Positions 4,083-31,909 of a stretch of DNA of 64,000 nt are shown piece after piece. A program made the translations under genes and the position numbers. How positions within the stretch are numbered: the first letter of the stretch is position 1; each line of letters begins with the position of its first letter. Location of the stretch: NCBI GenBank assembly GCA_028821395.1, contig JAPPGP010000099.1, positions 1-64,000 on the forward strand, read 5' to 3'. The notes below the pieces were generated by a model, which saw nothing but the letters and a program-made list of their open reading frames with translations, made no database searches and was not told the origin of the DNA. Source of the stretch: Defluviicoccus sp. GTDB taxonomy: Bacteria > Pseudomonadota > Alphaproteobacteria > MPNO01.

Positions 4083-5179
4083 GCCCCGGCGCGTTCCGCG
4101 ACCAGCCCGGCGAACACGTCTTCCGCCGGGCGGGCGTCGCCGAGCGGGATGTCGGGCGCCATCTCTCCCTCGGTGCGGATGCCCGAGAGCGCGATCGGAA
4201 CCGCCTTCCAGGGATGCGCGGCGAGGTCCGCCACCGCCGTCGCCTCGTAGCCGCAATGGGCCATGCAGTCGGCGCATTTCTGGTAGTTGCCGGTGCCGTA
4301 GGAGTCCCAGTCGGTCTCCTCCATCAGCGCGCGGAAGCTCGGCGCGTAGCCCTCGCCGAGCAGGTAGCAGGGGCGCTGCCAGCCGAACACGTTGCGCGTC
4401 GGGTTGCCCCAGGGCGTGCAGCGATAGCTCCGGTTGCCGGCCAGGAAGTCGAGATAGAGCGCCGAGTGGCTGAGCGGCCATCGGCGCCGGCGGCCGCGGG
4501 CGAAGACGGCGCGGAACAGCGCCCTTGTCTTGTGCCGGTTGAGGAAGTGCTGCTGGTCGGGCGCCCGCTCATAGGCGTAGCCCGGCGAGACGGTGATCCC
4601 GTCGACCCCGAGCCCGGTGACGGTATCGAAGAAATCGGCGACCTCGCCGGCGTCGACGCCGTCGAACAGGGTGCAGTTGACCGACACCCGGAAGCCGCGC
4701 GCCCGTGCCGCGGCGAGCGCGCCGAGGGCTGCGTCGTAGACGCCCTCCCGGCACACCGAGCGGTCGTGCACCGCGCGGGGACCGTCGAGGTGGATGGAGA
4801 ACGACAGGAACGGTCCCGGCTCGAACAGGTCGAGCTTCTTCTCCAGAAGCAGCGCGTTGGTGCACAGATAGACGTAGCGCCGGCGCGCCACGACGGCGTC
4901 GACGATACGGTCGATCTCGCGGTGGATCAGCGGCTCGCCGCCGGCGATCGAGACCACCGGCGCGCCGCATTCCTCGACCGCGGCCGTCGCCTCGGCGACG
5001 CTCATCCGCCGGTCGAGGATCGAATCGGGGTAGTCGATCTTGCCGCAGCCGGCGCAGGCGAGGTTGCAGCGGAACAGCGGCTCCAGCATGAGCACCAGCG
5101 GGTAGCGCCGCACGCCCGAGAGCCGCTGCTTCAGGATATAGGCGCCGATGCGGAGCTGTTGCGAGAGCCGAACGCCCAT
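4040..5179 (-). CDS. hpnH: Hopanoid biosynthesis radical SAM protein HpnH (adenosylhopane synthase)
   Basis: This 379-residue radical SAM enzyme adds the 5'-deoxyadenosyl group to diploptene/hopene, the first step of extended (C35) hopanoid synthesis. The 4Fe-4S motif CNLACAGC has its cysteines at residues 38, 42 and 45, followed by 'SIAGGEPL' (SAM-binding GGE). A C-terminal cysteine group ('YQKCADCMAHCGY') is typical of HpnH. The N-terminus 'RYPLVLMLEPLFRCNLAC' matches the family closely, and length is normal. Squalene-hopene cyclase and the rest of the hpn cluster are not in the window. An hpnM-like gene is transcribed divergently 110 nt away. The 3' end overlaps a lipoprotein gene on the other strand. 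Confidence 0.93.
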   Translation of the reverse strand: MGVRLSQQLRIGAYILKQRLSGVRRYPLVLMLEPLFRCNLACAGCGKIDYPDSILDRRMSVAEATAAVEECGAPVVSIAGGEPLIHREIDRIVDAVVARRRYVYLCTNALLLEKKLDLFEPGPFLSFSIHLDGPRAVHDRSVCREGVYDAALGALAAARARGFRVSVNCTLFDGVDAGEVADFFDTVTGLGVDGITVSPGYAYERAPDQQHFLNRHKTRALFRAVFARGRRRRWPLSHSALYLDFLAGNRSYRCTPWGNPTRNVFGWQRPCYLLGEGYAPSFRALMEETDWDSYGTGNYQKCADCMAHCGYEATAVADLAAHPWKAVPIALSGIRTEGEMAPDIPLGDARPAEDVFAGLVAERAGAQPPAGSSANPSGQ

Positions 5180-5289
5180 GCGAGACCCTTGTCCACCGGG
5201 GCCGGATTATCCGGCGATGCGGCGGCGATGTCCAATGTCGCCGGCCCGCTCGAGGCGCTAGGATGGCGCCGCCAGGAGTGGAGGCGCGA

Positions 5290-5922
5290 TTGAGCCCAGC
5301 GATCCGGCCCCTCGCCCGGGCGTTCGCCGCGGGCGTCATGGCCGTCTTCCTCGCCGCGCCGGCCGCGGCCGACCGGTCGGACCCGGTCAGGCTCGTCGAG
5401 GGGTTCCACGCGACCCTGCTCGGGGCGATGCAGAACGCCGAGGCGCTCGGCTATGCCGGGCGGCACCGCCTGCTCGCGCCGGCCATCGGCAAGACCTTCC
5501 ATCTCCGCCTGATGAGCCGCATGGTGGCCGGGCGGCGCCACTGGAAGGGGTTCTCCGGCGCTCAGAGGAAGCGCTTCGTCGCGGCCTTCTCCGGCCTCGT
5601 CGCGGCCACCTACGCCGATCGCTTCGACGGCTGGTCCGGCCAGAGCTTTAGGACCCTGGGCTCGGCCGAGCTGCGCCCCGGCACGGTGCTGGTCAAGACC
5701 GAGGTGGTCTCGCCGGGCAAGGCGCCGACCCGGCTCAACTACGTGCTGCGCCGGCTCCGCGACGGCTGGCATGCGGTCGACGTCTACCTCAAGGGCTCGA
5801 TCAGCGAGGTGGCGACCAAGCGGTCCGAGTACGCGGCGATCCTGCGCCGGGAGGGCGTCGACGCGCTGGTCCGGCGGATCGGGGAGACCGCGGCCAGGCT
5901 GGCGGCGGAGGCGGGTGAGTAG
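5290..5922 (+). CDS. MlaC/Ttg2-type phospholipid-binding protein, HpnM-like
   Basis: This 210-residue secreted protein of the MlaC/toluene-tolerance Ttg2 family binds lipids in the periplasm; the hopanoid-associated member is called HpnM. The start is placed at a TTG because GGAGG lies 5 nt upstream and an in-frame earlier start has no ribosome site. The signal peptide ends near 'APAAADRSD'. The core contains 'FSGAQRKRFVAAFSGLVAATYADRF', the usual MlaC central motif, and a C-terminal 'WHAVDVYLKGSISEV' strand segment. It diverges from hpnH, so a role in hopanoid or lipid traffic to the outer membrane is likely. Two parS sites follow directly after the stop. Confidence 0.85.
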   Translation: MSPAIRPLARAFAAGVMAVFLAAPAAADRSDPVRLVEGFHATLLGAMQNAEALGYAGRHRLLAPAIGKTFHLRLMSRMVAGRRHWKGFSGAQRKRFVAAFSGLVAATYADRFDGWSGQSFRTLGSAELRPGTVLVKTEVVSPGKAPTRLNYVLRRLRDGWHAVDVYLKGSISEVATKRSEYAAILRREGVDALVRRIGETAARLAAEAGE

Positions 5923-5929
5923 CCCCTAA

Positions 5930-5945
5930 TGTTTCACGTGAAACA
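5930..5945. other. parS centromere site 1
   Basis: The sequence is TGTTTCACGTGAAACA, a perfect match to the 16-bp palindromic parS consensus bound by ParB. It begins 7 nt after the stop of the hpnM-like gene. With the flanking CTAA it forms a 20-bp unit (5926-5945) repeated exactly in inverted orientation at 5967-5986. ParB loads here and spreads, directing origin segregation. Confidence 0.93.
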
Positions 5946-5966
5946 ATGGTCAACCGTGCTGACCTA

Positions 5967-5982
5967 TGTTTCACGTGAAACA
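5967..5982. other. parS centromere site 2
   Basis: This is a second perfect TGTTTCACGTGAAACA, 37 bp from the first measured start to start. The 20-bp unit 5967-5986 is the exact reverse complement of 5926-5945. The pair lies in the 150-nt gap between the hpnM-like gene and the end of the amidase gene. No T-run follows either copy, so these are not terminators. Confidence 0.93.
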
Positions 5983-6072
5983 TTAGCCTGAAACGGTTAA
6001 TATCCCGTCCCCCGGGGACGCGCCAGGCGCGCGTCAGGGGCTTGGCCGACGGTGCTGAGAGACCGGTCGAGG

Positions 6073-7461
6073 TCAGCCGGGCGCGGCGATCCCGCGCACC
6101 GCATGCACCAGCCAGTGCGCGTGGGCGACGATTTGGGCGTCGGCGCGGAAGAAGCCCATCAGCTGCACCCCGAGGGGCAGGCCGGCGACCGCGAGCAGCG
6201 GCAGGTTCAGCGCCGGGCAGCCGAGCACCGAGGACGGCTCGCCATAGACCATGTCGCCGACCGCCATGCCGACCGGCGCCGGGTCGACCTGGTTGAGGGT
6301 GACGAACCCGTCCGCCCTGCCGGCGAAGGCGTCGTGCCGCGCGCGGAAGGCGATGCACCATTCGAGCGCCCGGGCGTAGTCCTCGGGCGCGAGCTCGCGT
6401 CCGGCGACCACGCGGTCCCGCACCCGCTCGCTCAACCTGTCCCATTCGCGCTCGGCGTACATCGCGAGCGGCCAGCGCCCCTCATAGGTCAGGATCAGCG
6501 CGATTACCTCACGCAGCGTCACCAGGTCCCGCTCATAGGCCTCGATCTCGGGGTCGTCGGCGCGGCCGGCGATCTCGATCCCGGAATCCGCGAGCGTGCC
6601 GAGCCAGGCCTCGAAGGCAACCCTGGTCTCGTCGGTGGTGGCGGCCCAGCCGGCGGTCTCCAGCCGGATCAGCCGCCGGGGCTTGTCGGGCCTCGGCAGC
6701 GTCGCCGGCCCGCCGAGGCTGGGGTGGCCCGGATCGCCGCCCGCGATGCGCGAGACCGCGTGCGAGGCGATCCACAAATCGGCCAGCGTCCCGGTAATGA
6801 AGCCGACATGGACCAGGCTCGGCGCCGAGGGGAAGCCGCCGAGCGAGTTGATCGCGCCGTAGGAGGCTTTCAGCGTGTAGGCGCCGCAATAGGCGGCGGG
6901 CCGGAGGATCGAGCCGCGCACCTGCGATCCGGTGGCGGCCGGCAGCATGCGGGCGCCGACCGCCGCCCCGCTGCCGCTCGAAGAGCCGCCCGGGGTGCGG
7001 CTCTCGTCCCACGGGTTGCGCGACGGGCCGGGCGTGGCGAAGGCGAACTCGGTGGTGACCGTCTTGCCGACGATCGCCGCCCCCGCCTTGCGCAGCGCGA
7101 ACACGCAGGCGCCGTCCCAGCCCGACGACCAGTTCTCGAAGATCGGGCTGCCCACCTGCATCGGCATGTCCTCGGTCTCGTGCACGTCCTTGATGCCGAC
7201 CGGCATGCCGTCGAGCGGGGACAGCGGCCGCCCCGCCCGGTAGCGCGCCGTCGATGCGTCCGCCGCCGCCCGCGCGCCGTCGAGATTGAGGGTGACGAAG
7301 GCCTGGATGCGTGGCTCCAGCGCCTCGACGGTCTCGATGCAGCGCTCCAGATAGGCGCGCGGCGTGTCGCTGCCGTCGAGAAAGCCGGGGACGGCATCGC
7401 TGAACGAGAGCAGCGTCGTCGTCTTCGGATCGTAGGATTCGGTCGTTGCTGGATCGTTCAT
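6073..7461 (-). CDS. Amidase signature (AS) family amidohydrolase
   Basis: This 462-residue protein hydrolyses an amide or related C-N bond through the Ser-cisSer-Lys triad of the amidase signature family. The predicted triad is Lys91 (in 'PVGIKDVHE'), Ser160 (in 'PGGSSSGSG') and Ser184 (in 'QVRGSILRPA'), spaced as in FAAH and malonamidase. The usual 'GTDTGGS' before the nucleophile reads 'GSQVRGS' here, a divergent variant. The start is the ATG behind GGGAGG; an ATG seven codons upstream lacks a ribosome site. The enzyme stands alone, and substrate cannot be assigned. The GatA role is unlikely because gatB/gatC are absent and the motif is divergent. Confidence 0.88.
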   Translation of the reverse strand: MNDPATTESYDPKTTTLLSFSDAVPGFLDGSDTPRAYLERCIETVEALEPRIQAFVTLNLDGARAAADASTARYRAGRPLSPLDGMPVGIKDVHETEDMPMQVGSPIFENWSSGWDGACVFALRKAGAAIVGKTVTTEFAFATPGPSRNPWDESRTPGGSSSGSGAAVGARMLPAATGSQVRGSILRPAAYCGAYTLKASYGAINSLGGFPSAPSLVHVGFITGTLADLWIASHAVSRIAGGDPGHPSLGGPATLPRPDKPRRLIRLETAGWAATTDETRVAFEAWLGTLADSGIEIAGRADDPEIEAYERDLVTLREVIALILTYEGRWPLAMYAEREWDRLSERVRDRVVAGRELAPEDYARALEWCIAFRARHDAFAGRADGFVTLNQVDPAPVGMAVGDMVYGEPSSVLGCPALNLPLLAVAGLPLGVQLMGFFRADAQIVAHAHWLVHAVRGIAAPG

Positions 7462-17027: not shown

Positions 17028-18452
17028 TCACCCGGCCAGACGGCGGGCGGGCTCGGGCTGTGCGCAGCTATGCAGCGCATCCTCGACATTGCCGCCGACG
17101 GCGTAGGAGACCAGCTCGGCGAGGGTGACCGGCGCGCCGCGCACGTCGCGCTTGCCGGTCACCACGTCGGCGATCAGGCGGGCGTGCAGCTCCGCGGCGA
17201 GCTCGATCTGGCGCTTGGCGCGCGCGATGCGGGCGTCGATCGCGGCCTCCACCCGCTCCAGGTAGCTCACGATGGCGTGCTGTTCGGCGAGCGGCGGGCG
17301 AACGATCCGCAGGCAGCCGAGGCCGCTCCACTCCGCCCGCTTCACCGCCGAGCCGCCGGCGAGGGCGTCGATCGCCGCCACCACCGGGTGGGAGCGCAGC
17401 AGCCGCTCGACGTAGCGGCCGGAAAAGGCCGAGCGGCGCGGGCGCAGCACGAGGAACTCGCCGGCGCACAGCCCTCCGGTCTGCGGGCTGACCACCCGGG
17501 CGAGATGGGGGCGGAGCTTTCCGAACAGGACGTCGCCCGGCTCGAAACGCCTCAACCTCGCATCGGGCGGGTCGTCGGGCTCGCCGCGTTGGAGCCGCCC
17601 GGTCCGGCTCTCGACATGTTCCAGCGCGACATAGGCGTCGACGTGGCGCCGTTCGTCGCAGATCCGCCCGACGCTGGCCATCGACGCCTTGAGCCGTTCG
17701 ACCACCCAGTGCTCCGGCACCATGCCGAGCCAGGCCGCGCCGGAGTCCTTGCAGACGCGGTAGGGGCGCCCGGTACGGACGTCGAGCTTGCCGGCGACCG
17801 CACGGTGCACGGTGACCAGCTTCTGCTCTTCCAGCAGCGCGACCAGCCGCTTCTTGGCGCGGACGAAATTCCGCATCCTCCGTTCGACCCGGTCGAGGAA
17901 GCGCACGATGGCGCCCTGCTCGTCGAGCGGCGGCAGCGTCACGGTCAGCCGCTTGAGCTGTTCGGCGTAGATGTGGGCGACCGTGATGCCCTGGCCCATC
18001 GCCCCCTTCTGGCCCGCCGCCGGCAGGCAGTTGGTGGCGTAGCCCAGATAGCGCGCGTCGACCGTCCGGCTGGGCCGGAAGCGGATCACGTCGCGGCCGC
18101 AGCAGGCCTCGGAGCGGATCAGGTTGACCGCCGATTCGCCGACCTCCGCGGCGGTCTCGCCGGTCGCCGCGAACAGCACGTCGCCGAACCGGATCGGCGA
18201 GTACTTCGCGGCCTTGCTCCGGGTGACGAAGGACCGGCTCTCGGTGACAAAGCGGCGATGCGTGGTGTACAAATCGCCGTAGCGGATGCAGGGAATTCCC
18301 GACGCGCGCTCGTCCAGCCGGTTGCCGCCCCTGCCGGTGGAGAACGAGCCGAACCGGCCGAGCGGTTCGACGTCCCAGTGCGCGGGCACAAGGCCGAGCC
18401 AGTCCAGGCCGGACTCCTTCATCTCGGGGTAGCGGAGGAGGGCGGCGGTCAT
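17028..18452 (-). CDS. hsdS: Type I restriction-modification specificity subunit HsdS
   Basis: This 474-residue protein has two target-recognition domains in tandem, each opening with the HsdS signature ('GLDWLGLVPAHWDVEPLGRF' near residue 14, 'AAWLGMVPEHWVVERLKASM' near residue 235). Each ends with a conserved helix ('LDEQGAIVRFLDRVERRMRN', 'LAEQHAIVSYLERVEAAIDARI'). It gives sequence specificity to the methylase complex. The ATG lies inside the end of hsdM (4-nt overlap). No frameshift is seen in hsdS itself, but the partner hsdM has an early stop and no hsdR is nearby. Confidence 0.92.
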   Translation of the reverse strand: MTAALLRYPEMKESGLDWLGLVPAHWDVEPLGRFGSFSTGRGGNRLDERASGIPCIRYGDLYTTHRRFVTESRSFVTRSKAAKYSPIRFGDVLFAATGETAAEVGESAVNLIRSEACCGRDVIRFRPSRTVDARYLGYATNCLPAAGQKGAMGQGITVAHIYAEQLKRLTVTLPPLDEQGAIVRFLDRVERRMRNFVRAKKRLVALLEEQKLVTVHRAVAGKLDVRTGRPYRVCKDSGAAWLGMVPEHWVVERLKASMASVGRICDERRHVDAYVALEHVESRTGRLQRGEPDDPPDARLRRFEPGDVLFGKLRPHLARVVSPQTGGLCAGEFLVLRPRRSAFSGRYVERLLRSHPVVAAIDALAGGSAVKRAEWSGLGCLRIVRPPLAEQHAIVSYLERVEAAIDARIARAKRQIELAAELHARLIADVVTGKRDVRGAPVTLAELVSYAVGGNVEDALHSCAQPEPARRLAG

Positions 18453-20422
18453 CGTCCGGCCCCCTGGAAGATGTTCTCCATCAGGCTTCCGGTCTCGCGC
18501 TCGAGAGCGAGGATCTCGGCCCGGATCTCGTCCACCCCGCGCATCGGCTCGGGGCGGTAGAAGTGCCGCCTGAAATCGATCCGGTAGCCGATCTTCTCGC
18601 TGTCCGGCCGGTACCACGCATCCGGCGCGTAGGGCAGCACCTCGCGCTCCATGAAGCTCTCGATCCCGCCCTCTTCCTGCAGCGGGACCCGTTCGGTGTC
18701 GCGCAGCGCGGCGTCCGGCTCGTACTCCACCACCGCCGCCCTGCCGCCGATCTCGGCGGCGAACAGGCCGCGCAGCGGATCGGCCGCGGCGCCCCTTCCA
18801 TGGATCTTCGCGATCACCGGCGACGCGGTCTCCCGCCGCCTGCCGTGATCCCGCAAGCGCACGATCTCGTCCGCCGAGTGGACCCTGCCGGGCTCGACGC
18901 CTTCGACGCGGAGCGGGCGCTCGACGGTCACCTTGCGGTAGCCGAACGCGGCGTTGTCGAGGATCCGGCTGTGCTCGGTCTCCTCGAAGGCGAGGAAGGC
19001 CTCGCAGATCCGCGCGACATGCTCCTCGCCGAGCTCGCGGCTCTTCTTGCCGACGCTCCTCGGCAGGCCGCGGAACCAGCCGCTGGCGTCGATCAGCTGC
19101 ACCCTGCCGCGGCGGCGCGCCGGCTTGCGGTTGGTGAGAACCCAGACATAGGTGGCGATCGCGGTGTCGTAGAAGATGTTGCTGGGCAGGGCGACGATGG
19201 CCTCCAGCCAGTCGTTCTCCAGGATCCAGCGGCGGATGTTGCTCTCGCCCTGCCCGGCGTCGCCGGTAGACAGCGACGCGCCGTTGTGGACCTCGGCGAT
19301 GCGGCTGCCGAGCGGCGTGTCCCGCTTCATCTTCGCCAGCGCGTTGACGAGGTAGAGCATCTGGCTGTCGCTGGCGCGCGGCAGCAGGGAGTAGCCGGGA
19401 TCGCCGGCGTGGTGGACGGCGAAGCGCGCATCCCGCGTCGCCTTCCTGCCGCCCATGCGGTCGAGCTCCGCCTTCCACCGCCTGCCATGCGGCGGGTTGG
19501 ACAGCATGAAGTCGAACTGGTGCGCCGCGAACGCGTCCTGCGACACCGCCGACCGCCCCTCCCCGCCGGCGATGGTGCAGGCGTCGTCGCCGCGTCCGGC
19601 GAGCAGCATGCCGGCCTTGCAGGAGACGTAGCTGTCGGGGTTGACCTCCTGGCCGTAGAGACGGATCGAGACCTCGCCGCGGTTCGGCCGCGCCAGCTCG
19701 CGCAGGCGCTCCCCGGCCGCGTCCAGAATCTCGCCGATGCCGCACGCCCCGTCATAGAGCGAGTAGGCGCCAGGCCGGAAGTTGCCGGCGACCGGTTCGA
19801 AGGCGAGCCGCGCCATCAGCCCGATCGCATCGCGCGGGGTCCGGTGCTCGCCGGACCCCTCGCCGCTCTCGGCCTTGCCGCGGCGCACCAGCTCCTCGAA
19901 CAGCGCGCGCATGGCGGCCTCGTCGAGGCCGGTCTCCGCGATCGTGCCGTCGGCGTGGCGCACCGGGTCCGGGCCGAAATGGATGTCGCCGGCGGTGAAT
20001 TTGCGGATCAGCCTGGCCAGCGCGGCAGTCTCGCCCAGACGCTCGGCCCGCTCGCGGAAGCCGAGCTCGTCGAGGATCCCCCGCACGTTGGGCGAGAAGC
20101 CGTCGAGATAGGCGGCGAAATCGGCCGCCAGCCGTCGGCGTCCCGAGCGTTTCCCGAGACCGCCGAGGGCGAGCCCGGAGAGATTGTAATAGGGCAGCCC
20201 CGAGACCCGGCGGAGCGCGTCGTCGCGTTCCGCCGGGTGCGCGCCGTCGAGCTCCGCGGCGCGCGCCGCGCCGGGTTACCTGGACGCTTCCAGCAGCGCG
20301 TCGAGGCGGACGATGAAGACCATGGGCAGGACGACATCGCGACACCCGACCGGGGCGTCGCAATTGCGCAGCGCCTCCCTGGCAAGCTTCCAGATCTGGT
20401 TGGCGATCCGCGGTACGTTCAC
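18449..20422 (-). pseudogene. hsdM: Type I methyltransferase subunit HsdM with in-frame stop
   Basis: The GTG at 20422 has an AAGGAGAA ribosome site, and the first 48 codons read as a normal HsdM N-terminus ('RIANQIWKLAREAL', 'VVLPMVFIVRLDALLEAS'). An in-frame TAA at 20276-20278 then interrupts, after which the same frame continues as HsdM for about 608 codons to 18449, including 'FSPNVRGILDELGF'. Motif I reads 'DGACGIGEIL' (usual D-P-A/T-C-G-T-G-G) and the catalytic motif IV reads NPPH rather than NPPF/Y. Both hint at erosion. Restart at the GTG at 20086 would omit most of the N-terminal domain. A sequencing error is possible. Confidence 0.75.
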
Positions 20423-21772: not shown

Positions 21773-21848
21773 TGGCTCCCCGGGCCGGACTCGAACCAGC
21801 GACATGGTGGTTAACAGCCACCCGCTCTACCAACTGAGCTACCGGGGA
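21773..21848 (-). tRNA. tRNA-Asn (anticodon GTT)
   Basis: This is a 76-nt cloverleaf including an encoded CCA. Acceptor TCCCCGG/CCGGGGA, D-arm with GCTCAGTTGGTAGAGC, anticodon loop CTGTTAA (GTT) in stem GGTGG/CCACC, and T-arm with GGTTCGAGTCC. The hsd/DUF2335/hic accessory block begins downstream of its 3' end. Confidence 0.97.
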
Positions 21849-29289: not shown

Positions 29290-29515
29290 GGCACGGGCTC
29301 CGTCGGTCGATATGCGGGGAGAACTATAGCGTCCCGGTTCCGGCGTTTCATGCCTCTCGATGCCACGTCCCCGTACCTCTCACGCGGGGGGCGGCATCCG
29401 GAAGGCGAACCGGGGCTCGCCGGTCCAGCACGGCAGAATTGGTCAATCACTTATTCTACTGTAGGAAGTTGGTCTGGCGACAAGTCCCGAAGCGGTCTGT
29501 TTGCCAGGGGCACTT

Positions 29516-29956
29516 TCAAGGTACGGAAACTGCCCTGTCCTGCCACCTGCTCAAACTGAGGAATGCTCGCAGGTGGACCTCTGCGTCTTCCCAATCTCTT
29601 GCGTGCTCTTCCGGCAGGACTATTTCCGCATGGTAAGGGTTGTCTTGTTGAGGGGTATACACAACGGTACGGCAACCCAAGCAGGCATCGCGTTTCGTGA
29701 TAATCAACCATCCTTGGACGCGATCTGACCCATCAATTCGAGCCGCTCTACGGTCCCCATGGTCAGTGGCGAATTCCAAGCTTACGTCGTCGTACCTGTT
29801 GGTGGAGATTCGAGCGTCGGGCCCTTGCGAGCTACCGAAGACGTCCTTTGTCCTTCTGCTGACTATTCGTTCTCCCACGGGGCAATCCAGTGCCCGCTTC
29901 TGGCGCTCCCGGTAGACGTCCCTCCAGAGACCTTCGTCCTCGCGGATATCCTCCAC
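29516..29956 (-). CDS. Unknown cassette protein C (146 residues)
   Basis: This is the last gene of a three-gene minus-strand operon in visibly AT-richer DNA. The product is charged and soluble, with an N-terminal helical start, a middle 'NRYDDVSLEFATDHGDRRAARI' segment and a C-terminal 'CLGCRTVVYTPQQDNPYHAEI' followed by 'LPEEHARDWEDAEVHLRAFL'. I have seen the NPYHAEI-type segment in small uncharacterised proteins but cannot name a family. The start is 5 nt after the stop of the upstream gene. Confidence 0.65.
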   Translation of the reverse strand: MEDIREDEGLWRDVYRERQKRALDCPVGERIVSRRTKDVFGSSQGPDARISTNRYDDVSLEFATDHGDRRAARIDGSDRVQGWLIITKRDACLGCRTVVYTPQQDNPYHAEIVLPEEHARDWEDAEVHLRAFLSLSRWQDRAVSVP

Positions 29957-29961
29957 GATGC

Positions 29962-30765
29962 CTAACCTGCGGCAAGGTCGCGCAGAGCCTTCTCGATGAA
30001 CACATCCGGGAGTCCGTCCATTTGGTAGAACTTCGCCCGGCGGCTGTTTCCGCCAATCGTGGCGAAACAGTAGACGGTATCGTCAGGAGCGCACTCCACG
30101 GCCACGGATGCACCCCATTTCATCGGTGCGTCGATGGCGACGCCGCGTCTTTCCGTCGGCGACACCCGGTACCGCGCTGGCAGGATCGCGTAGAGCCGTG
30201 GCAGCAAGGTACGGGCATTGGCAACGGAGCCTGCGTCCGGTTCCGGCAAGTCGTCCTCCTTCGCTTCGTCGTTCAGCGAATCCAGGTCCGAGAGAGCTTC
30301 CCGAAGGTCTCGGTCATCATGGGGCAACAGCTCAGCAGTACTGGCGCCGGACTCCTGCACCGCGCGCCGCGACATGCTCCCCGCTGGGTGCGGAACGAAA
30401 TAGGCATGGCGCTCATCGTCGAAGCTACCCAAGTCGCCCTGGCTAGGCCATGTCGGCACTCTCACCAGGTATCCACCAACGAGCCCGTGCCCCGTGTGCA
30501 TGCCTCCGGATGCGGTTTCGCGCTGAGGCGTTGCCGGGTAGAGGCGTCGCACCAGCGTCTCGGGGTCAGCGGCGAGGTCATCCAGGGAAACCGTTCCTTC
30601 GTTCTTGTGCAACTCCACCAGTTTACCCGCCAGAGAATGCCGCAGCGGTTCGCTATGCAACCCGCCCGCGGACGCCGTATCTCGAGTCCACGTCTCCGCC
30701 GTCGCTGGGCTTGCCCCGAAGTATCGCTGATGTGCTCCCCGTGCAACATTCGCTGTGTCACTCAT
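29962..30765 (-). CDS. Unknown cassette protein B (267 residues)
   Basis: This second gene of the three-gene operon overlaps the first by 4 nt (ATGA), with a GAAGGG ribosome site. No signal peptide or membrane helix is seen. The N-terminal half is hydrophilic, with a short acidic linker ('LNDEAKEDDLPEPD'). The C-terminal part 'NARTLLPRLYAILPARYRVSPTERRGVAID' followed by 'SVAVECAPDDTVYCFATIGG' looks like a compact beta domain seen in various small uncharacterised proteins. Function is unknown. Confidence 0.7.
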   Translation of the reverse strand: MSDTANVARGAHQRYFGASPATAETWTRDTASAGGLHSEPLRHSLAGKLVELHKNEGTVSLDDLAADPETLVRRLYPATPQRETASGGMHTGHGLVGGYLVRVPTWPSQGDLGSFDDERHAYFVPHPAGSMSRRAVQESGASTAELLPHDDRDLREALSDLDSLNDEAKEDDLPEPDAGSVANARTLLPRLYAILPARYRVSPTERRGVAIDAPMKWGASVAVECAPDDTVYCFATIGGNSRRAKFYQMDGLPDVFIEKALRDLAAG

Positions 30766-31391
30766 TTCCCTTCACCCTCGAAACCGCGAGATAGGCCGCT
30801 GAACACCGATTGGATGTACTCCTTCGCGTTCCCCGCTTCGTTCAGCTTGGACGACAGGTCGTCGCTCGCGGCAACGTTCTGATGTCCATTGACCGAAAGA
30901 AACAGGTTTGCTCCACCGGAACTGACATGCGGCTCAACCCTCAGCGTGTATTGCACTGCCCCACGGAGGACGACCACATGGCATTGGGTTTCGTCGAAGG
31001 GTGAGCCGATCGCCTGCCGTACTCGGACAGCGTCGTACATGCCATTGCAGAACTCCGTCCCGGAAAGGCCGCCGATCCCCTGAGACAGCACGGCACTGAA
31101 GTTGAACCCCAGCCCCGTGACGCCATGGCCTTGGCTTTGAGCTTCCAATTGGGCAACGACCCGCGCCGCCGCTTCCACCAGTTCACCAGACAGGACTGAG
31201 CCGGAGTTGTGGTCGAGCACAATTCGGTCGTTTAGGACGGAGAACCTGTAGGTATTCGATCCGTAGGCGTAGATCGCGAAATCGCCCACCGCCGTATAGT
31301 CCTTCGCCATCCGCTCAGGAAATAGCTCGTGCTCTTCGAACAGCTGACGCCTGAAGCCGCCCCCGACAAAGACAACGCTGGACGCGCCCAC
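30762..31391 (-). CDS. Unknown cassette protein A (209 residues)
   Basis: This first gene of the three-gene operon has a GTG start with GAGAGGAG 6 nt upstream. The product is soluble and beta-rich ('FAIYAYGSNTYRFSVLNDRI', 'CHVVVLRGAVQYTLRVEPHV', 'NLFLSVNGHQNV') with a C-terminal helix. The layout loosely recalls TIGR04255-type proteins, but I cannot support that assignment. Two copies of CCAGTCTAGAC lie 24-90 nt upstream. With its neighbours it forms a self-contained unit next to tRNA-Cys. Confidence 0.7.
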   Translation of the reverse strand: MGASSVVFVGGGFRRQLFEEHELFPERMAKDYTAVGDFAIYAYGSNTYRFSVLNDRIVLDHNSGSVLSGELVEAAARVVAQLEAQSQGHGVTGLGFNFSAVLSQGIGGLSGTEFCNGMYDAVRVRQAIGSPFDETQCHVVVLRGAVQYTLRVEPHVSSGGANLFLSVNGHQNVAASDDLSSKLNEAGNAKEYIQSVFSGLSRGFEGEGK

Positions 31392-31414
31392 TCGAAACTC
31401 CTCTCTTGACCCTC

Positions 31415-31481
31415 CCAGTCTAGACCCACGCAGTACCCGACAGTTCCTGTGTGGGCTTCGTCTCTTTCCGCCAGTCTAGAC
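31415..31481. repeat. Two direct copies of CCAGTCTAGAC upstream of the cassette
   Basis: The identical 11-mers are at 31415-31425 and 31471-31481, 56 bp apart, each containing the palindrome GTCTAGAC. They lie 24 and 80 nt upstream of the start of cassette gene A. Their position fits operator sites, but no bound regulator is known. Confidence 0.55.
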
Positions 31482-31537
31482 AAGCCCAAACGACGGAGTC
31501 CACCACACGCCCTCGCCGGTTGCGGCCCCAACAGCGC

Positions 31538-31639
31538 CTAAGCGGACCTCTGGAAGCGGAGCAGCGTGGTCGTGCCGCGCTTTTCTCTAGAGATTGGCAC
31601 TAGCCCGCATTTCTCAAGAACATGGGTACGTTGGGCCTC
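31538..31639 (-). pseudogene. Possible GNAT acetyltransferase C-terminal remnant
   Basis: Between an in-frame TGA and a TAG the minus strand reads 'RTHVLEKCGLVPISREKRG' and a short beta-like tail. This resembles the end of GNAT acetyltransferases ('RVLEKxGF...'). Only 33 codons remain and the preceding frame is closed, so at most it is a relic. The match is short and may be chance. Confidence 0.3.
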
Positions 31640-31835
31640 TCAAGTGATGAACGACGCTTGGGCCCGGGCTGAAACGAACCGGGCGGTCCGTCAGGCCGCA
31701 TGAGTGGCTGCGGCGAACGCAACACTGAAGTCGCTACTACCTCCTCGCACAACGTCCGTCAGTGCCGGATATCGGGCGTCAACAGCGGCGGCCAGAGACA
31801 TGTTTCATTGAAATCCTGCAAATCCTTGAAAAAAC

Positions 31836-31909
31836 TGGAGGCCCGGAGCGGATTCGAACCGCTGTGAACGGATTTGCAGTCCGCTGGATAGCCACTCTCC
31901 CACCGGGCC
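31836..31909 (-). tRNA. tRNA-Cys (anticodon GCA)
   Basis: This is a 74-nt cloverleaf with encoded CCA. Acceptor GGCCCGG/CCGGGCC, D-arm with GGGAGAGTGGC, anticodon loop CTGCAAA in stem GCGGA/TCCGT, and T-arm with GGTTCGAATCC. A run of six T follows the CCA on the transcribed strand. The unknown three-gene cassette lies downstream of its 3' end. Confidence 0.97.

Follow-up and report, generated by a model that had tools for sequence, protein, structure and literature searches.

The 64,000-nt stretch of Defluviicoccus sp. DNA analyzed in this study (contig JAPPGP010000099.1; here called the window) carries three tightly coupled genes, designated A, B, and C, which lie in a segment inserted at the 3' end of a tRNA-Cys gene. 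The cassette is a transferred operon, complete in itself, and its most probable role is to protect the host from phages or from mobile DNA of other kinds. As it has been exchanged among widely divergent bacteria and is sometimes located inside known anti-virus clusters, it is probably a defense module that has not previously been described. The A, B, and C proteins are new; mobile candidate defense operons are already known as a kind. The features of the locus are as follows.

29416..31834, no strand assigned: inserted segment of ~2.4 kb, missing from three congeners; its ends are approximate by a few bases
29516..29956, minus strand: gene C, 146 aa, with conserved E8, R12, S51, G82-W83, R96, N106, and H109
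29962..30765, minus strand: gene B, 267 aa, with residues 150 to 267 strongly conserved and residues 1 to 150 variable
30762..31391, minus strand: gene A, 209 aa, which opens the cassette; no family recognized, exchangeable position
31416-31425 and 31472-31481, upstream of gene A: two copies of the repeat CAGTCTAGAC, a possible operator
31836..31909, minus strand: tRNA-Cys(GCA), with the insert at its 3' end

The initial annotation, made from the letters of the window alone, had described three coupled genes in AT-richer DNA downstream of the tRNA-Cys 3' end, and the open reading frame coordinates, base composition, and tRNA position all agree with this description. All three genes lie on the minus strand, with A and B joined by a 4-nt ATGA overlap and B and C separated by 5 nt. 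The GC content of the genes is 0.57 to 0.64, compared with 0.69 to 0.72 in neighboring genes, and their GC3 (A, 0.71; B, 0.70; C, 0.61; cassette, 0.68) is below the 0.87 to 0.95 (~0.93) of six neighbors. A, B, and C are considered real genes on comparative grounds, as A, C, and the C terminus of B retain 58 to 83% amino acid identity in close relatives despite fourfold-degenerate sites that are only 33 to 53% identical. The three proteins are acidic, and no hydrophobic segment was found in any of them (highest 19-residue hydropathy mean, 1.07), in keeping with the earlier view that membrane helices and signal peptides are absent. Strong initiation signals had been proposed for the whole cassette; good Shine-Dalgarno-like sequences precede A and B, but that of C is weak. 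Similarly, the upstream repeats are present as two copies of CAGTCTAGAC (chance expectation for the pair, 0.02) but were not seen upstream of the relatives' cassettes, and a role as a conserved operator was rejected.

The genes neighboring the cassette are retained in four genomes of the same genus. In three of these (G387, G388, and G389) only some tens of bases separate the tRNA-Cys 3' end from the DNA that precedes the cupin gene, and this empty site shows that ~2.4 kb was inserted at that position in the window, a point absent from the initial annotation. The insert consists of the A-B-C cassette and noncoding DNA on its flanks. It resembles tRNA-integrated genomic islands in its position at a tRNA 3' end, in the empty site found in relatives, and in content that differs between species. 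It differs from them in that neither an integrase open reading frame nor a second copy of the tRNA-Cys end (an att-like repeat) was found within it. A phage or satellite remnant was also considered and rejected, as the insert is devoid of any phage gene. The fourth genome, G386, carries a different insert of ~3.7 kb (L021:5448-9150) at the same tRNA-Cys point, containing an EamA transporter gene and small genes of unknown function, which marks the tRNA-Cys 3' end as a variable spot in the genus. Directly after the tRNA, the window and G386 inserts are weakly similar over 24 nt (13 of 24 positions alike), a value equaled or exceeded in 223 of 100,000 shuffles, which is no more than suggestive of an integrase arm common to both. 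Elsewhere in the window, a type I-like DNA methyltransferase gene (PADLOC MTase_I, E value of 2e-150; 18449-20086, minus strand) is located near tRNA-Asn (21773-21848).

When 84,980 species genomes were scanned for B, two relatives were identified: L002, from a metagenome-assembled genome (MAG) of the Immundisolibacterales (Gammaproteobacteria), and L003, from a MAG of the Bryobacterales (Acidobacteriota). Both may come from sponge samples; sponge metagenomes have been reported to be rich in defense genes (PMC5099237). Each harbors a complete A-B-C cassette with the order and tight spacing seen in the window, and that of L002, like the window's, is found downstream of a tRNA gene, here tRNA-Asp at a distance of ~330 nt. 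Protein A shares 63% (L002) and 58% (L003) of its residues with the window version; the corresponding values are 66% and 64% for C and 83% and 78% for the final 117 residues of B. In the middle region of B, identity among these three closest loci falls to 15 to 32%. Fourfold-degenerate sites within the conserved stretches are near-saturated (33 to 53% identical among the three), so that the conservation reflects selection on the protein rather than recent copying. From these comparisons, the B C terminus is judged to be under strong purifying selection.

Profile searches added seven loci to the window, L002, and L003, giving the ten loci compared here: G389, from the genus of the window; G124, G185, and G312, from other Alphaproteobacteria; G784, from the order of L003; and G921 and G919, from the order of L002. 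The C-terminal domain of B (~117 residues) is present in all ten and C in nine, with the C of G919 possibly damaged at its end. The first gene belongs to the A family only in the window, L002, and L003. Its place is taken by a 236- to 239-aa protein in G389, G124, and G784, by yet another protein in G921 and G919, and by a 134-aa protein in G312, the B and C of which align clearly with those of other loci in profile comparison. G185 has no first gene and represents a minimal form, in which two genes encoding 128 and 138 aa overlap by 4 nt. No homology among the first-gene proteins was detectable by profile comparison (hhalign), and a single family covering all of them was thus unsupported. The part of B that precedes the conserved domain is equally variable in length, ranging from a few residues (G185) to ~180 (G389). 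Each C that was found is preceded by a B. In G124 (L028:2708-3223), B is present but C is not intact: a C-like start (DDIKPEENL) gives way after ~14 codons to unrelated sequence with an in-frame stop, abutting the frame of a DUF4411 protein. We take this protein, following common annotation, to be PIN-like. The arrangement is read as a single case in which C, as a putative small effector, was displaced by another.

Co-occurrence of the three families, which the initial annotation proposed as a check, holds for B and C (C always lies behind B, and nine of the ten B loci have C) and in part for A, the family of which was seen in three loci. Sequence comparison across two phyla defines the B C-terminal domain and C as a conserved core, and shows that the first gene and the B N terminus are variable or exchangeable.

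Several lines of evidence show, at the level of sequence, that the cassette has been transferred horizontally. A tree built from the B C terminus and C unites the window with L002 and L003 (support of 100) and places it far from G389, although G389 belongs to the same genus as the window. The same gene order occurs in three classes and two phyla, and the GC3 of the cassette is lower than that of the compared neighbors in 10 of 10 loci. The cassette is also sparsely distributed: two samples from the class, of 289 and 385 genomes, contained three carriers each (the window's genome counted), and in a sample of 398 genomes from the phylum it was found in the window's own only. Together with the empty sites of congeners, the foreign GC3 and shared gene order bear out the proposal of a self-contained transferred module.

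All of the C residues listed above are invariant in nine of nine C copies (window numbering), and the protein contains the motif DNxYHAxIxLP. These residues resemble an active or binding site more than a bare scaffold, and their conservation in nine sequences suggests that C is likely the effector. In the mechanism proposed here, an invader or its activity would be recognized by the protein from the first gene together with the N-terminal half of B, the C-terminal domain of B would hold or couple C, and C, with its conserved E, R, S, and R and its N-x-x-H residues, would act as the effector. This division of labor, with recognition by the first gene and the variable half of B and coupling of C by the constant half, is put forward tentatively. 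It is likewise possible, though speculative, that the cassette represents a previously undescribed, modular immune system of bacteria built on a constant B(C-terminal)-C core, in which the range of targets would depend on which first gene and which N-terminal half of B are exchanged into the locus, and in which the chemistry of C would be of no known family.

The earlier finding that the proteins lack a recognized domain was upheld, as none of A, B, and C had a significant match in Pfam, NCBIfam, PHROGs, or PADLOC. In PADLOC-DB 2.0.0, no match was found at E values up to 1, including for the corresponding G389 proteins (A', B', and C'), and the distant versions gave nothing significant in Pfam, NCBIfam, or PADLOC. 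Searches of plasmid and phage records gave no match to the cassette proteins, scans of viral contigs gave no relative, and a PDB sequence search returned nothing credible. A structure model of A (pLDDT of 55) retrieved a Foldseek PDB list of TBP-like folds (E values of ~1e-3 and weaker, TM of ~0.3), a weak lead to a predicted TBP-like fold; the model of C (pLDDT of 41) was left unused. The idea that the first gene is TIGR04255-like was rejected, as A had no NCBIfam match at E values up to 1 and the other first-gene proteins had none either.

Among the rival explanations, the main one is that B and C form a plain toxin-antitoxin (TA) pair, with C as the toxin and the C-terminal domain of B as the antitoxin, maintained on mobile DNA chiefly through addiction and with no need to invoke phage defense; the first gene would then play an accessory part as a regulator or chaperone, in the manner of three-component TA systems. 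The cassette does resemble type II and three-component TA systems in its small coupled genes, in the two-gene minimal form of G185, from which the first gene is missing, and in the finding that C never occurs without B while B without intact C exists in G124, where the C-like frame runs into the DUF4411 protein and a HicB-like antitoxin lies nearby. However, the asymmetry between B and C is based on that one locus, no TA family match or known toxin or antitoxin domain was found in Pfam or NCBIfam, and the large conserved first gene present in most cassette loci, along with the fast-diverging B N terminus, would be unusual for a plain TA pair. We consider this explanation doubtful and favor the reading of the cassette as a probable protective operon, the case for which comes from its genomic context.

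Three of the ten loci adjoin known defense genes (G389, G124, and G921), two of them at Hma, a system composed of the HmaA helicase, HmaB methylase, and HmaC ATPase (Payne et al. 2021, PMC8565338). The G389 cassette ends 22 nt upstream of hmaB, which has the same orientation, and hmaC lies farther downstream. In G124 the first two cassette genes lie ~390 nt after the end of hmaA, followed downstream by the genes for the DUF4411 protein, the HicB-like antitoxin, and a DNA methylase. As neither contig spans the interval, a position of the cassette between hmaA and hmaB is inferred from these two halves. The G921 cassette is flanked by a type III methylase and a HEC-01A/B pair. Hma is uncommon, with ~7 to 8 strong HmaB matches in 289 genomes, and contact of two of ten cassettes with Hma by random placement would thus appear very unlikely. 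The defense or TA-like role suggested in the initial annotation is, as far as gene neighborhoods can indicate, strengthened by this context in three of ten loci; no recognized defense gene was found directly beside the cassette in the stretches read at the other seven.

The latter loci bear on a second explanation, that the cassette is ordinary accessory cargo unrelated to conflict, carried on elements that use tRNA sites or genomic islands, with its defense neighbors incidental because islands collect many things. Most copies do stand alone among housekeeping genes, and the tRNA-Cys site of G386 holds an EamA transporter instead of a defense gene. Shared islands nevertheless poorly explain why 2 of 10 copies are found at the uncommon Hma, one of them in an apparent operon with hmaB, and a half of B that diverges fast next to one that is nearly fixed suggests conflict. 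Cargo of this kind is rated unlikely. A third explanation, suggested by the G389 and G124 placements, is that the cassette belongs to the Hma system as an accessory and can also persist independently. This is highly improbable, as no Hma gene was found in the stretches read around 8 of 10 cassettes, the cassette was not found in the sequence read at other Hma loci, and the presence of Septu in the same interval in G033 points to a cargo slot.

In that locus (G033; L055:1393-9786), Septu ptuA (4902-6233) and ptuB (6235-6876) lie between hmaA and hmaB in a continuous operon with junctions of 4 nt or shorter, one defense system nested in another. According to Payne et al. 2021 (PMC8565338), Septu type I is a frequent companion of Hma. 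The cassette resembles Septu type I (ptuA-ptuB) in being a small self-contained operon and in apparently occupying the same interval in G389 and G124. Unlike Septu, which comprises the PtuA ATPase and the PtuB HNH protein, A, B, and C do not match PtuA or PtuB and include no ATPase or HNH nuclease. Hma itself, which requires hmaA, hmaB, and hmaC in one locus, is likewise distinct: none of A, B, and C is an Hma protein, hma genes are absent beside the window cassette, and most cassettes are alone, with hma genes found only beside those of G389 (hmaB and hmaC) and G124 (the end of hmaA), directly adjacent in both.

Should the cassette prove protective, previously undescribed protein families would join bacterial immunity, and the view of the hmaA-hmaB interval as a loading slot for exchangeable defense modules would be supported, offering a simple route for finding further modules. 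The layout of a constant core with variable partners also poses the question of whether swapping the first gene and the B N terminus alters which phage is blocked.

At six to seven other Hma loci, the cassette was absent within ~1.5 kb upstream of hmaB. In two further genomes (L035 and L040), long frames of another kind lie directly upstream of hmaB (~500 aa shown, running off the stretch), so that cargo in this interval may be of several types. In G389 (L017:1985-3350), two genes of unknown function encoding 289 and 157 aa, with no PADLOC match, follow hmaC in the same direction and precede a DUF4145 gene. The window's own genome also carries (L042; G000:C38, 478-4679) another gene for a DUF1156-type methylase, which matches HmaB distantly and precedes a gene for an AAA ATPase.
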